The notes under the pieces: model-generated
The model's input: the letters and a program-made list of their open reading frames with translations, nothing else
Told to the model about the DNA's origin: nothing
The model's database searches: none
Program-made: the position numbers and the translations under genes
Assembly: GCA_009392275.1 (NCBI GenBank)
Contig: VFGV01000008.1
Span: forward strand, 34,501 to 98,500
Direction: 5' to 3'
Origin: SAR202 cluster bacterium
GTDB lineage: Bacteria > Chloroflexota > Dehalococcoidia > Lucifugimonadales > UBA2962
Length of the DNA stretch: 64,000 nt
Shown here: one piece after another, positions 25,377 through 62,530 of the stretch
Numbering within the stretch: position 1 is the first letter of the stretch
Layout of the letters: each line of letters opens with the position of its first letter

Positions 25377-26147
25377 CTATATGTCTCGTTTACCTGCGGA
25401 TATTTTCGCGGGTAAACGAGACTCTCCTGAATTCCTAGACTTTAATAATTCAAGATGAAGATGTTTTTGTGGGGGCAAATAACTGATGCCTCTAAGCATT
25501 TTCCATTCATAAGGATTAATTGCTATTAAGTTCATACGGTATTGTCCTCTTACCTGAACTCTACGTTCTCTAGGCTGTTGCTCGATAAAACCCTTATTTA
25601 CTAAAGCTGATATACGGTCATCAACAGTTCTAGAAAGGCTCTGTTTTTCATAATCATTTAATGCAAACCATTTAGGGAAAAGTTTAGCCCATGTATTTTC
25701 TTCCGGGTCTAAATGAAAGTTCATATTCTCCTGTTTTTCCTCATGAGAATAACCTGTTTTCATCTTTTGCCTTACAGCCCCTATCAACTCAACTCGTTCC
25801 TTTGTTACCCATTTATCCGGAAGCTTATTCGCAGCGTACTTAGAACTCTTAGATGCTTTATAGTGTCGCCAATGTGTTAAAGAATCAGTTTCCCAGCATA
25901 ACAAAATTTCAGTATCAATTAATGCAAATGGCGGCTTTTCAAGTTTTTGATATGACCCACTAATTAAATTGCTCTCATTGTCCTTAGAAAGTCTTGGTTG
26001 ATTGAAATAATGGATATCAAGCAATTTACCCAAAATATCATCCATCACGGAGATATTATTGGCATCACCATACGATTTTAAAGCATCTCGATTAGATCGA
26101 CTGAGCCTCACAGTTGTCATATTGGTTTTTTTATTTTTCCCAAGCAT
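25377..26147 (-). CDS. Protein of unknown family with RHH-like N-terminus; paralog of the 54074-54580 gene
   Basis: Shares EILLCW..SL..W, WAKL[FY]P.WF, T[VI]D.RI.AL[VI]N.GFIE..PR and EW..L..IS with the second copy. Confidence 0.7.
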   Translation of the reverse strand: MLGKNKKTNMTTVRLSRSNRDALKSYGDANNISVMDDILGKLLDIHYFNQPRLSKDNESNLISGSYQKLEKPPFALIDTEILLCWETDSLTHWRHYKASKSSKYAANKLPDKWVTKERVELIGAVRQKMKTGYSHEEKQENMNFHLDPEENTWAKLFPKWFALNDYEKQSLSRTVDDRISALVNKGFIEQQPRERRVQVRGQYRMNLIAINPYEWKMLRGISYLPPQKHLHLELLKSRNSGESRLPAKISAGKRDI

Positions 26148-54073: not shown

Positions 54074-54580
54074 TTAATTATTAACCCTGAGCACTTCCTT
54101 AAATTGAGTGAGCTTAGGAACTACAACATCAATTTTAGGCTCAAGATTGCTTATATCCTTCAATAATTCCCATTCAGAAATTGTGATTTCTAATAAATCC
54201 ATCTGGAACATATCCCTGCTATGTCCCATCATTACTCTTGGCACTTTCTCAATAAAACCTCTATTTATCAATGCTTGAATCCGATGATCTATAGTTTTAC
54301 GTACACCAAGTGCATCCCAATCAGGCCGGTCAAACCATTCTGGATATAATTTTGCCCATGTGATAAACCCATCATCCAAACTAATATTTTCTAAGTTAGC
54401 GTCAAATTTAGTTGATCCAAATTCAATTTTATTCTTAACTAATGTGAAAATATTGGATCTGTGTCTTTTCCCATAACGCATCTCTTGTAACGAATGGTCA
54501 TCAATTAACCAATATTCTAAAGACTCATCATGCCAACAAAGCAATATCTCAACATCAATAATTTCAAATAAAGGCGCCAT
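54074..54580 (-). CDS. Protein of unknown family, paralog of the 25377-26147 gene
   Basis: Shared motifs EILLCW, ITWAKLYPEWF, KTIDHRIQALINRGFIEKVPR. Start at ATG 54580 preceded by GGAGAGG. Confidence 0.7.
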   Translation of the reverse strand: MAPLFEIIDVEILLCWHDESLEYWLIDDHSLQEMRYGKRHRSNIFTLVKNKIEFGSTKFDANLENISLDDGFITWAKLYPEWFDRPDWDALGVRKTIDHRIQALINRGFIEKVPRVMMGHSRDMFQMDLLEITISEWELLKDISNLEPKIDVVVPKLTQFKEVLRVNN

Positions 54581-54603
54581 ACACCTCTCCAAATAACCGG
54601 ACC

Positions 54604-55662
54604 TTATTTAAAGGTTAATAGCCGTTTTGGATTTTCAACCATCATTTTATCGATATTGTCATTTGAGAACCCGCGCTTACGCATTCTTGGAATGATACTA
54701 TCCAAAATATGAGTGTATCCCCCACCCCCATATGAACTTAAATCCGTCTTTAAGCAAACATCTTGAGCAATAACAATTTGACTCTCATAACCCCATTCTA
54801 TTAATTGTTCTATACGCTCTATACGCTGCACGTCAGAAGGAAATGCAATTTCAAGGCCGGCCTCTGCAAAGTTTGTGTTTTCACTACCGAAACGATCAAA
54901 CTCAAGAGTCGCGCCAGTTTCTGCAATTTCCTTAACTACTTCTGGAGAATATGGAAACACGTCTAGATGTCCCATAATGATCCTAGTTGGATCAGCTCCA
55001 GCTTCAATTAAATCATTTAAATGTTGTAAAAGCGCGTCTGGGTGTCCGCCCGGATGAATAGAAATGGCTGCACCAGTTTCAACAGATGCATGAGCTGAAG
55101 CTCTGAGAATTTTTCGAGAAGTCTCATTTGTTGGCCAGAAATTACCAACCTCTCCTATTATGCCCGACTTAACTCCAGTATCTTTAACTCCGACTGTTAT
55201 ATCTTTAACTATTGCGTCAGTAATTTCTTGTTCTGTTTGATCATAAATTTCTTCAGAATATGAAGCTGGAACATAATATGATGCTCCCATAATTATGTTA
55301 AGGCCAGTAGCGCGAGATATCCTAGTTAGTGCCAATGGATCCCTGGCTATGCCTATCGAGGTAGTATCTACTAACGAATTGCCTCCGGACAAGTAATATT
55401 TGTATACTTCCTCTGTTTGATGTTTTTCATCACACAAATCACCAACATCTCTATTATGAAATAGACGTGGCATAAGACTACTAAGAATCTCAATTGTTAC
55501 CGGCTGATCCACATACCAGCGCTCAGTAGCCTCTTCAGGCATACTAAAATAGCAAGATAAATCAATTAATGAGTGTTCATGAGTTAATGTAACTCCAAGA
55601 TCATCTGGCTCAATTAATCCCAGTACGGTCTGTATTTTCCCCGTCCTTTCTGATTTAGACAC
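54604..55662 (-). CDS. Phosphotriesterase-family (PTE/PHP-like) metal-dependent hydrolase
   Basis: LGVTLTHEHSLIDLS (HxH); GIIGEVGNFWP; SIHPGGH; IIMGHLD; VIAQDVCLK; NPKRLLTF. Confidence 0.92.
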   Translation of the reverse strand: MSKSERTGKIQTVLGLIEPDDLGVTLTHEHSLIDLSCYFSMPEEATERWYVDQPVTIEILSSLMPRLFHNRDVGDLCDEKHQTEEVYKYYLSGGNSLVDTTSIGIARDPLALTRISRATGLNIIMGASYYVPASYSEEIYDQTEQEITDAIVKDITVGVKDTGVKSGIIGEVGNFWPTNETSRKILRASAHASVETGAAISIHPGGHPDALLQHLNDLIEAGADPTRIIMGHLDVFPYSPEVVKEIAETGATLEFDRFGSENTNFAEAGLEIAFPSDVQRIERIEQLIEWGYESQIVIAQDVCLKTDLSSYGGGGYTHILDSIIPRMRKRGFSNDNIDKMMVENPKRLLTFK

Positions 55663-55704
55663 ATTTAGCTCCTTTTAATCGATTTCAAGTTTCTAATAGC
55701 AATT

Positions 55705-55782
55705 TCAACATTCACATGGATCGCATTCACATGGATCACACGTGCAATTTGGATTATCACATTTTGGATTTTCTGATGACAC
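55705..55782 (-). CDS. 25-aa cysteine-rich metallothionein-like peptide (not in ORF track)
   Basis: GTG start preceded by GAGG; translation MSSENPKCDNPNCTCDPCECDPCEC*; 7 Cys in 25 residues; 42 nt upstream of the co-oriented phosphotriesterase-family gene. Confidence 0.65.
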   Translation of the reverse strand: MSSENPKCDNPNCTCDPCECDPCEC

Positions 55783-56012
55783 GAATAACCTCACTCTTTA
55801 CTGTCCATGAGCGCAGTATATACAAAGCTAATGGTTTGAGCCATTTATTCTTATTTTTAAAAAGGGCATCAACCAGCTAAAAATCCTTTTATTAGGATTG
55901 TTAATTGTTTCACAATAGACTAAATTAGTATTAACAAAAGTCCTTTATGACTTATTGTTAAGCACATGAAATCAAATGTCCTCTTTAACTTTGGATTTTG
56001 TAATTGGGCTAA

Positions 56013-59254: not shown

Positions 59255-62200
59255 GTGAAAAATCTCTTAATTAAACTCTTAATAATATTGTCAATTCTCG
59301 CATTAAGTTGTGCAGAATCTAAACCGATTGCAATCGAAACACAACCAAAAGAACAAATAGAGTCAATTACAGAGCCCACTGCAACAGCACAGCAGTCTGC
59401 AGATCCAACTCCAAGACCGACAAACACAGCATCTCCTGTTTCCAATGAAATAGATCCTACAGACACAGTTGATCAAAGTGAAGTGACTGAAGAAATTAGT
59501 GAGAGTACATATGATCCCAACTGTATGATTAAAGTTTTAGGTAGACCGAGAACAGACGATATTGTCTATTTTGATGCGAAAATAGATCAAGCAGAACTCA
59601 TGAGTATCCAGCACTGCAAGCTCGGAAAGCCTGAAATAGAAAATGATTTTGAAGAGGACAGAGGTCGCGATGATGATAGAACGCGTAATGAAGATAGACC
59701 TGAAGAAGATGATGACAGACGCCGCAATGAAGATAGATCTGAAGATGATGACAGACGCCGCAATGAAGATAGACCTGAAGATGATGATAAACGCAGATAC
59801 GACGATGAAGAATGGGAATGCAGCGGAGATCAGAAAGATGAAAGTGGTTTACCTAAAACACCAGACTGCAACGTACCTCCAGTAGAACTTCCAAACGGCG
59901 TTGTCGCTGCTGACCTAACTAATGTAACCCTACCAGTCGCTAAATATGAGCAACCTTTTGATAGTTGCCAGATTTATGAAGGAGAACAATGTTCTGAATT
60001 AAAGTGGGAGAAGGTGTCAGACGTACAGGCAGGCGAATTCGTGGAAATCAAAATCTCACCTGTTGATTCAAATATCATGTATGCAGGTGTCGATTCTAAT
60101 GATATGACTATGTACCGGAGCACGGATGCTGGTGCCAGTTGGGACCTAGTTCATGTAACAGGCCACGTTGGTTCATTAGCACTAAGTCCAGTTGATAAAG
60201 ATATTGCTATTTATACAAATTTGGAATGGTCCGTCCAAGCCACCTTTGATGGCGGAGAATCATGGGAATCAGTAGTTGGTTTTACTGCCGATCAAGGCAA
60301 TGTTATACCTTTCACAGCAATACAATTTTCTTCCCAGCAGCCTAATATCGTATATGCTGCCGCTCTTCAGTCTGGCGATACGCGAGGAGATATATGGCCA
60401 GCTGAACCTTCTGATCTATATAAAAGCATAGATTCTGGCAAAACTTGGACCAAGACAGGCACCTGTTCAACATGCTCTGCTATCGATGCAATTGTTGTGA
60501 TGCCAGATAACCCTGAAGTGATATGGGTTGCAGGGGATGGAGGTGTCCAATACACACGTGATGATGGAGTGACATGGAGCGGCAACGTGATTTCGTATCT
60601 TGAAGAAGTCGCTAACAGCAAGAAAAACCTCAATGAAAACAACCCTCCAAAAGTGATGGGTCTGGATATTCACCAGAACAACCCAAACATCATATTGGCT
60701 GCTTCAACAAACGAAGGATTGTTCCGTAGTTCTGACAGTGGATTAACCTGGGAAAGAATTAACAACGGACTAAATTCTCTCAAGTTACACCACGTTCATT
60801 TCGCACCTAGCAATGGCAATGTTGCTTATGTAACTAGTCATGATGGAATTTTTAGAAGTAATGATTCAGGCAAATCCTGGACCGATATAAGTGAAGGATT
60901 GGCATACAAATTCCTAACGCCTGTAGCAATTGATCCAACTGATGAAAATATCGTTTTCATTGGCACTGCCACTGAAGTATATACAACACATCCCAAACAC
61001 AAGAATAGAGGAATGCATAAAGGGGAAGGCTTATACAAAAGTATAGACGGTGGAAAAACTTGGTATAGAAGTGACAAGGGTATATACGAAGCGAAGATAG
61101 CACAAATGGGAAATCATCCAATTGTCCCATTCAATCTCTGGGTCGGAGGTGAGTCTGGACGAGGCAATTTCTTTTCCCCTGATGCTGGAGATAGTTGGTG
61201 GTTTTCTCCATCAATAACGTCTCATTATCCAATGGTATATGCCTTCTCATATGATTTTCCATATGTGATCTATACCACAGGATGGTTAAGAACAGGAGAG
61301 TTAACTGCCAGTACCGATTTCGGTGCAAGCTGGTATGTATTGACTCACGAAATTGAATCTGGATTAAGTGAGGAAACTTACAACTTAGGATTGCGCCTGG
61401 AAGGAGCCGCTGATTTCCACTTGCACGGAGTAGCTGTAGCACCAAGTAATTCAGACGTTATATATGTAGGTTCAGTACACGATTCGGTATATCCCGACTT
61501 GACTTTCAATCTTGACGGAGCACACATATTTAAATCATCAGATGGAGGTAAATCCTTTCAAGAAAAGTCTAATGGATTTCCTATTGAAACAAAGACATCA
61601 ATTAACTCCATAATTGTACATCCAACAAACCCTGATATTGCCTATGCGATGACAAGCCTTCATGAAACCACAACCGCTATAGGTATATATAAAACAACTA
61701 ATGGCGCAGAGTCTTGGTTTGAAATTAATGACGGCCTAGATGAATTTACAAACGATCTGCAAATGGACCCAATCGACCCTGAAATACTGTATGCGGCCAC
61801 AGAAAGTGGTATATATAAATCGACTAATGGAGGTCAAAAATGGGATAAGTCCTCAACAGGTATACCCAAGGGCGCAGTAATTGACATGGCTATTGATCCG
61901 ATTAACCCAAATGTTCTTTATGCAATAACCGCAGACGATATATATAGAACACAAAATGCTGGTAAAAATTGGTACTCTGTAAACTTAGGATTACCTTTAC
62001 TTGAGCCTTCATCCAAGCCACTTTCCGCTCAAGAAAAATTGTTCGGAAAATTACTTTTGGATCGTACGCAAACGGGACATTCCGAGTACGGAGGCACATT
62101 TGCACAAGACCGAACTCTTGAAATTGATTCAACTGGAAAGGTAATTTTTGTTGCGGTTAAAACTTCCAGAAATGACAGGGATAAAAACTCGGAGCGCCTA

Positions 62201-62530
62201 CTGTACAGAGCAATTTTAACTCCTCTAATTAGTCTAGTTTATGAATTTGCGATAAAAGTTGACGGCAGAGTGGAGAGCATAGAAGTGACTTCACAGTCCC
62301 ATATATTTGAAATGACATTTAACACAAATTCCAAAGAACTCAGCTTTATGGCCGGTGGCCCTAAGGGAACTAACTCATCCACCACGGTATCAATACCAAA
62401 CACTCTCCTTTCTGGACAGTTGGAAGTATTAGTAGACGGGATACGGGTACCAAGTTCTAATGGCAATGATGGAGTCACATTTGATCTTATTCATGCGGGC
62501 AGTAGCCAAGTAACAATTAAGGCCAAATAA
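59255..62530 (+). CDS. Asp-box (BNR/sortilin-like) repeat lipoprotein with acidic Asp/Arg/Glu repeat linker
   Basis: Lipobox LALSC; about 13 S.D.G.[TS]W-type motifs; DDDRRRNEDRPE tandem repeats near the N-terminus. Confidence 0.87.
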   Translation: MKNLLIKLLIILSILALSCAESKPIAIETQPKEQIESITEPTATAQQSADPTPRPTNTASPVSNEIDPTDTVDQSEVTEEISESTYDPNCMIKVLGRPRTDDIVYFDAKIDQAELMSIQHCKLGKPEIENDFEEDRGRDDDRTRNEDRPEEDDDRRRNEDRSEDDDRRRNEDRPEDDDKRRYDDEEWECSGDQKDESGLPKTPDCNVPPVELPNGVVAADLTNVTLPVAKYEQPFDSCQIYEGEQCSELKWEKVSDVQAGEFVEIKISPVDSNIMYAGVDSNDMTMYRSTDAGASWDLVHVTGHVGSLALSPVDKDIAIYTNLEWSVQATFDGGESWESVVGFTADQGNVIPFTAIQFSSQQPNIVYAAALQSGDTRGDIWPAEPSDLYKSIDSGKTWTKTGTCSTCSAIDAIVVMPDNPEVIWVAGDGGVQYTRDDGVTWSGNVISYLEEVANSKKNLNENNPPKVMGLDIHQNNPNIILAASTNEGLFRSSDSGLTWERINNGLNSLKLHHVHFAPSNGNVAYVTSHDGIFRSNDSGKSWTDISEGLAYKFLTPVAIDPTDENIVFIGTATEVYTTHPKHKNRGMHKGEGLYKSIDGGKTWYRSDKGIYEAKIAQMGNHPIVPFNLWVGGESGRGNFFSPDAGDSWWFSPSITSHYPMVYAFSYDFPYVIYTTGWLRTGELTASTDFGASWYVLTHEIESGLSEETYNLGLRLEGAADFHLHGVAVAPSNSDVIYVGSVHDSVYPDLTFNLDGAHIFKSSDGGKSFQEKSNGFPIETKTSINSIIVHPTNPDIAYAMTSLHETTTAIGIYKTTNGAESWFEINDGLDEFTNDLQMDPIDPEILYAATESGIYKSTNGGQKWDKSSTGIPKGAVIDMAIDPINPNVLYAITADDIYRTQNAGKNWYSVNLGLPLLEPSSKPLSAQEKLFGKLLLDRTQTGHSEYGGTFAQDRTLEIDSTGKVIFVAVKTSRNDRDKNSERLLYRAILTPLISLVYEFAIKVDGRVESIEVTSQSHIFEMTFNTNSKELSFMAGGPKGTNSSTTVSIPNTLLSGQLEVLVDGIRVPSSNGNDGVTFDLIHAGSSQVTIKAK
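59669..59812 (+). repeat. Coding 36-nt tandem repeat, about 4 units
   Basis: Units 59669-59704, 59708-59743, 59744-59779, 59780-59812 encode DDDRTRNEDRPE / DDDRRRNEDRSE / DDDRRRNEDRPE / DDDKRRYDDEE. Confidence 0.9.

Follow-up and report, generated by a model that had tools for sequence, protein, structure and literature searches.

The window, 64,000 nucleotides of contig VFGV01000008.1 from a SAR202 cluster bacterium whose genome assembly is 1.53 Mb and 89% complete, carries a short Cys-rich coding sequence on its minus strand at positions 55705-55782. The frame opens with GTG (55782-55780), closes with TGA (55707-55705) directly after the last residue, and is translated as VSSENPKCDNPNCTCDPCECDPCEC, a peptide of 25 residues of which seven are Cys, spaced C-x4-C-x-C-x2-C-x-C-x2-C-x-C. 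A Shine-Dalgarno sequence, GAGG (55789-55792, minus strand), lies 6 nt ahead of the GTG, and the aligned site in congeners reads AGGAGTT. A putative -10 box, TATACT (55815-55820, minus strand), was located further upstream by alignment of five congeners; ATATACT is invariant in all five, including the one that has no peptide gene, and the box is presumed to function in a promoter. The dyad GCT-N8/9-AGC, present upstream of this box in three congeners, was rejected as a candidate operator, its half-sites being too short for such a claim. On re-translation, the frame, strand, coordinates and GTG start with GAGG about 6 nt upstream reported in the first-pass annotation were all exact, as was its Cys spacing string (CxxxxCxCxxCxCxxCxC, 7 Cys in 25 residues). 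The alternative start offered in the same annotation, an in-frame GTG at 55794-55792, exists as a codon and was rejected because the homologues speak against its use: in the three other gene-bearing congeners an ATG aligns exactly with the 55782 GTG, AGGAGTT precedes each ATG, and no conserved coding sequence lies before it.

The peptide gene is followed after 42 nt by a gene of the phosphotriesterase (PTE) family (PF02126, E 5e-70; 54604-55662, minus strand) with its own AGGAG. The gap between the two is 36-44 nt in the four gene-bearing congeners, no terminator-like site was found between peptide and PTE gene in the window (55663-55704), and the two genes are probably carried on the same transcript. 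Divergent from the peptide, on the opposite strand, are genes for a substrate-binding protein (PF01497), a FecCD permease and an ABC ATPase; a FecCD-type importer of this kind stands beside the peptide in three of the four own-genus loci and is not common to other genera. The congeneric genomes (G000-G004, approximately 1.4-1.9 Mb) each contain 13-16 PTE-family matches at E<=1e-40; given how small the genomes are, this is a striking expansion. Elsewhere in the window, the proteins encoded at 54074-54592, which has no Pfam match, and at 25377-26147 have in common an ILLCW-(D/E)-(S/T)-(L)-(E/T)-W-like motif and resemble each other in their C-terminal halves. A secreted-looking protein of 1091 aa with (D/E)DRRRNEDR(S/P)ED repeats and sialidase-like repeats is encoded at 59255-62530; in genus g240 (L160) a homologue of it is found 0.66 kb upstream of the peptide gene.

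In Markov simulations of the window, at least seven Cys within 18 residues occurred approximately 0.00-0.03 times per 64 kb, and chance origin of the frame is ruled out by its conservation in relatives. The first-pass annotation had held that its proposal would fall if neither frame nor Cys were conserved in close relatives; the frame was found in four of five congeneric genomes, each time upstream of the same PTE gene, with mostly synonymous changes and a product of 25-26 aa with seven Cys, and six genera of the order share the Cys scaffold without variation. Pooled pN/pS within the genus was 0.083 for the whole peptide (pS 0.61, pN 0.05) and 0.033 for the Cys core (pS 0.67, pN 0.02). Twelve of the 16 variable codons differ purely synonymously, Cys 13, 15 and 18 alternate between TGT and TGC, and the non-Cys residues D, P, N and E are likewise retained with synonymous change. 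The ORF is a real protein-coding gene, and its reading frame, start, seven Cys and their spacing are under purifying selection. The fifth congener, G001 (79% complete), lacks the gene outright, with no frame-shifted copy in its place; the PTE orthologue there is 89% identical, is itself followed by similar genes, and stands directly behind the same -10-like box and AAGGAGTTA. The peptide gene is thus a separable cistron that was lost, or never gained, as a unit, and absence from one congener of this completeness indicates that the peptide is dispensable. The two AGGAG repeats that flank the gene may have provided a simple route to deletion.

A profile built from the first seven sequences was searched against 250 genomes of the order and recovered 16 further members of 21-36 aa from five other genera in families f2, f107 and f108, all verified by translation; one lies on PBDR01000018.1 (Chloroflexi bacterium isolate SP342). 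A 37-aa paralogue was additionally found in congener G002. Most members are 21-26 aa long, MTKCNNPNCKCDPCNCDPCNC being an example of 21 residues, and one genus has a conserved tail of 13 residues (36 aa). Only the seven Cys are invariant in an alignment of 22 rows, and Asn at the second residue after the first Cys is nearly so, as expected for a set of metal ligands and not for an enzyme. Within the other genera purifying selection is seen too (pN/pS 0.14-0.22), and every Cys is retained. Outside the order, a member was found in family f42 of the same class (MAKNELKKCANKNCKCTNCTCNPCKC). A second f42 copy (L198, G287:C16) has lost one base after the ATG and carries Tyr in place of one Cys, reflecting either decay or an assembly error; it was the only frame-shifted copy seen, belongs to a distant family, and suggests that the gene can also decay. 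When the bare seven-Cys spacing was scanned against the DNA of GTDB genomes, the matches listed were mostly low-complexity CCCC or CXC runs, and among them only L070 and L124 were convincing new records. At phylum level the tailed profile A3 performed less well than the plain core, giving no sound new member; its one other match, L185, sits inside a 218-aa frame. The low-scoring candidates L006-L008, L010, L011, L144, L145 and L147-L150 were discarded, as they have no scaffold and most are out of frame with, or inside, larger ORFs. Candidate L146 (MNMSCSKQNCKCDPCGCEFFSN) is possibly a truncated relative.

Gene neighbourhoods differ between genera. In genus g2 the peptide immediately precedes a DapA-like gene in five of six species (gap 9-44 nt), followed by a thrS-like gene. 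In three species of genus g239 (L166, L169, L170) it is the last cistron of an Alternative Complex III operon and begins 1-2 nt past the stop codon of the cytochrome c in the ActE position (ActD, PF11821, and the cytochrome, PF00034, were identified); a metal regulator of the DtxR-FeoA fusion type encoded approximately 1.3 kb from the g239 peptide is not common to other genera. Some members stand alone, with no close downstream gene on the same strand. Across the genera examined, no metal transporter or sensor was found as a consistently adjoining gene. As there is no fixed partner, the peptide has a role of its own.

Similar peptides were found outside the Chloroflexota. The core profile matched 9 of 248 Pelagibacterales genomes at E<=0.01, and a Pelagibacterales-specific profile matched 11 of 158 genomes at E<=1e-4. 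The Pelagibacterales peptide (L124, L187-L195; for example MACNNSHCKCKNCSCDRCVCKNCDCKPSSENCCCNK) is conserved in approximately 7% of sampled genomes, has 36-39 aa with 11-12 Cys and a pN/pS of 0.17, and gave no match in Pfam or NCBIfam; in the example the first seven Cys are spaced as in the Chloroflexota family and five more follow. At all nine loci examined it lies between a metallo-beta-lactamase-like gene, which is presumably persulfide-dioxygenase-like, and cysE-cysK, these neighbours having been named by sequence recognition. A profile-profile comparison of the Chloroflexota and Pelagibacterales peptides gave 95% probability, in an hhalign register one unit off the proposed one. Since the CXCxx array is periodic and the register shifted, this does not establish common descent, and the link between phyla could reflect convergence, because short Cys-rich profiles score with compositional bias. 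In congener G002 a relative of 37 aa, MCNNPECKCSNCTCDPCECSSENPCGCEFDDEQVAPV, is encoded on a phage-like contig (L165, G002:C40:2000-18000) after three Fe-S genes, two HesB-like and one IscU-like; the ThyX-, RNR-, RuvC-, HesB- and IscU-like genes of this contig were likewise named by sequence recognition and are taken as such. This relative is possibly a viral metallothionein. A tblastn search against plasmids and phages gave no match, and 0 of 136 Poseidoniales genomes matched in a search run without a positive control.

The ORF probably encodes an ultra-short metallothionein-like peptide, which most likely binds metals as metallothioneins do. The term "metallothionein-like" in the first-pass annotation has gained support from the conservation of the Cys scaffold; metal binding itself stays a predicted property, as the models of metallothionein families give no match. 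Peptides of this sort should fold only when metal is present. The apo-peptide would be unfolded and would wrap around a small cluster of a thiophilic d10 metal, with the three CXC pairs and the one leading Cys as ligands; Cu(I), at 4-6 ions, or Zn(II)/Cd(II), at approximately 2 ions, would be the most likely metal. In the cytosol the peptide may buffer the bound metal, scavenge it or exchange it with partners. Its place in ordinary operons lacking a dedicated metal-responsive unit suggests constitutive, housekeeping buffering rather than emergency detoxification.

The conserved spacing of 36-44 nt by which the peptide precedes PTE as first cistron, together with its position directly ahead of the DapA-like gene in g2, would suit a leader peptide whose translating ribosomes sense cysteine through charged tRNA-Cys and so control PTE, the peptide itself being functionless. 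A functionless leader would not be expected to keep D, P, N and E as well, under synonymous change; PTE is not a cysteine-pathway gene, the interval 55663-55704 holds no terminator-like hairpin, and the G001 PTE gene follows the same promoter-like box with no peptide between. The g239 copy, 1-2 nt behind ActE, and the copies with no close same-strand gene downstream are further against it, and a leader function is considered very improbable. Partner-free occurrence also counts against a metal donor or chaperone dedicated to metallating the binuclear site of the neighbouring PTE enzyme, which would explain why, in four species, the peptide gene adjoins a PTE-family metallohydrolase gene and probably shares its transcript. 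In other genera the homologues do not stand beside PTE, G001 has a PTE that is 89% identical and no peptide, and none of the paralogues checked, from among the 13-16 PTE-family matches in each genome, is preceded by a peptide of this kind; a dedicated donor is therefore regarded as improbable.

A role in thiol or Fe-S chemistry, as a Cys-rich redox buffer, persulfide carrier or Fe-S scaffold, draws on loci at a distance from the window: the Pelagibacterales peptide between the persulfide-dioxygenase-like gene and cysE-cysK, and the longer relative after IscU/HesB-like genes on the phage-like contig. No such gene lies near the window copy, and its spacing is rich in CXC with no CxxCxxC, an arrangement typical of metal-thiolate clusters and not of ferredoxins; this role is rated as unlikely.

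The best reading of the sequences is a new family of ultra-short metal-thiolate buffer peptides. With members of 21-37 residues in several marine bacterial genera and in none of the profile libraries searched, the family is apparently undescribed. A wider proposal, tentative and somewhat doubtful as a whole, is that a single old and mobile metallothionein family of 21-39 aa with the scaffold C-x-N-x2-C-x-C-x2-C-x-C-x2-C-x-C is spread among streamlined bacteria of the ocean, namely marine Chloroflexota and a minority within the Pelagibacterales, and is present on one or more phage-like contigs; it would act as a cytosolic soft-metal buffer unseen by profile-based surveys. Surveys of this kind have reported few detoxification genes in abundant streamlined marine bacteria (PMC4161860). 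They could not have seen the family, because 21-26 codons fall below usual gene-caller limits and no Pfam, NCBIfam or PHROG model matches. In literature searches whose coverage leaves out most subscription journals, no work combining metallothionein with SAR202 was found, and for metallothionein with Pelagibacter no such gene was described in the portions of the texts available. If metal-binding, the peptide would represent an unrecorded metal buffer in these lineages and be among the smallest gene-encoded metallothioneins.

The window peptide has the traits of the metallothionein class (25 aa, 28% Cys, three CXC and two CXXC) and contains no aromatic residue; g2 members have one or two Tyr/Phe. 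Searches of Pfam and NCBIfam with the window peptide returned no family match at E<=10, no metallothionein model among them, and PHROG held no fitting family. The SmtA/BmtA metallothioneins, presumably covered in Pfam by Metallothio_Pro (PF02069), are about twice as long as the family described here, and resemble it in being small, bacterial and rich in Cys, with CXC motifs; a metal-binding role in the cytosol would be common to both. SmtA-type proteins use His ligands and adopt a GATA-type zinc-finger fold (PMC10612145). In contrast, the window peptide has no His, is too short for a zinc-finger fold and has no Pfam match, most of its family having 21-26 aa; judged by sequence, it is not of the bacterial SmtA/BmtA family, no relation having appeared by any test applied. 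The mycobacterial MymT, of approximately 53 aa, is by description likewise a short bacterial Cys-rich metallothionein (Cu) outside the SmtA type. A metallothionein of M. tuberculosis is noted in the same source (PMC10612145). The sole match of the profile to a solved structure was metallothionein PDB 1m0j (MT_nc) at E 0.52, which is not significant; the likeness to this vertebrate domain is a CTCxxCxCxxC run aligned over 12 residues. The 1m0j entry is taken to be one domain of a longer, two-domain vertebrate metallothionein, and fungal family-8 metallothioneins are Gly/Ser-rich, whereas the window peptide is Asp/Pro-rich. The family-8 Cu-metallothioneins of Neurospora crassa and Agaricus bisporus have 26 residues and seven Cys, as three CXC and a single Cys, in the pattern X2-[CXC]-X5-[CXC]-X3-[CXC]-X2-C-X3 (PMC4755600). 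Size and Cys count are matched by the own-genus peptides (25-26 aa, seven Cys, three CXC plus one), but the pattern is not, being C-x4-[CXC]-x2-[CXC]-x2-[CXC] with the order of units reversed and the single Cys leading; the fungal proteins belong to a different kingdom and have no detectable homology to the window peptide. If the metallothionein reading is true, the 21-residue members would be shorter than these fungal metallothioneins of 26 residues, which were formerly regarded as the shortest.
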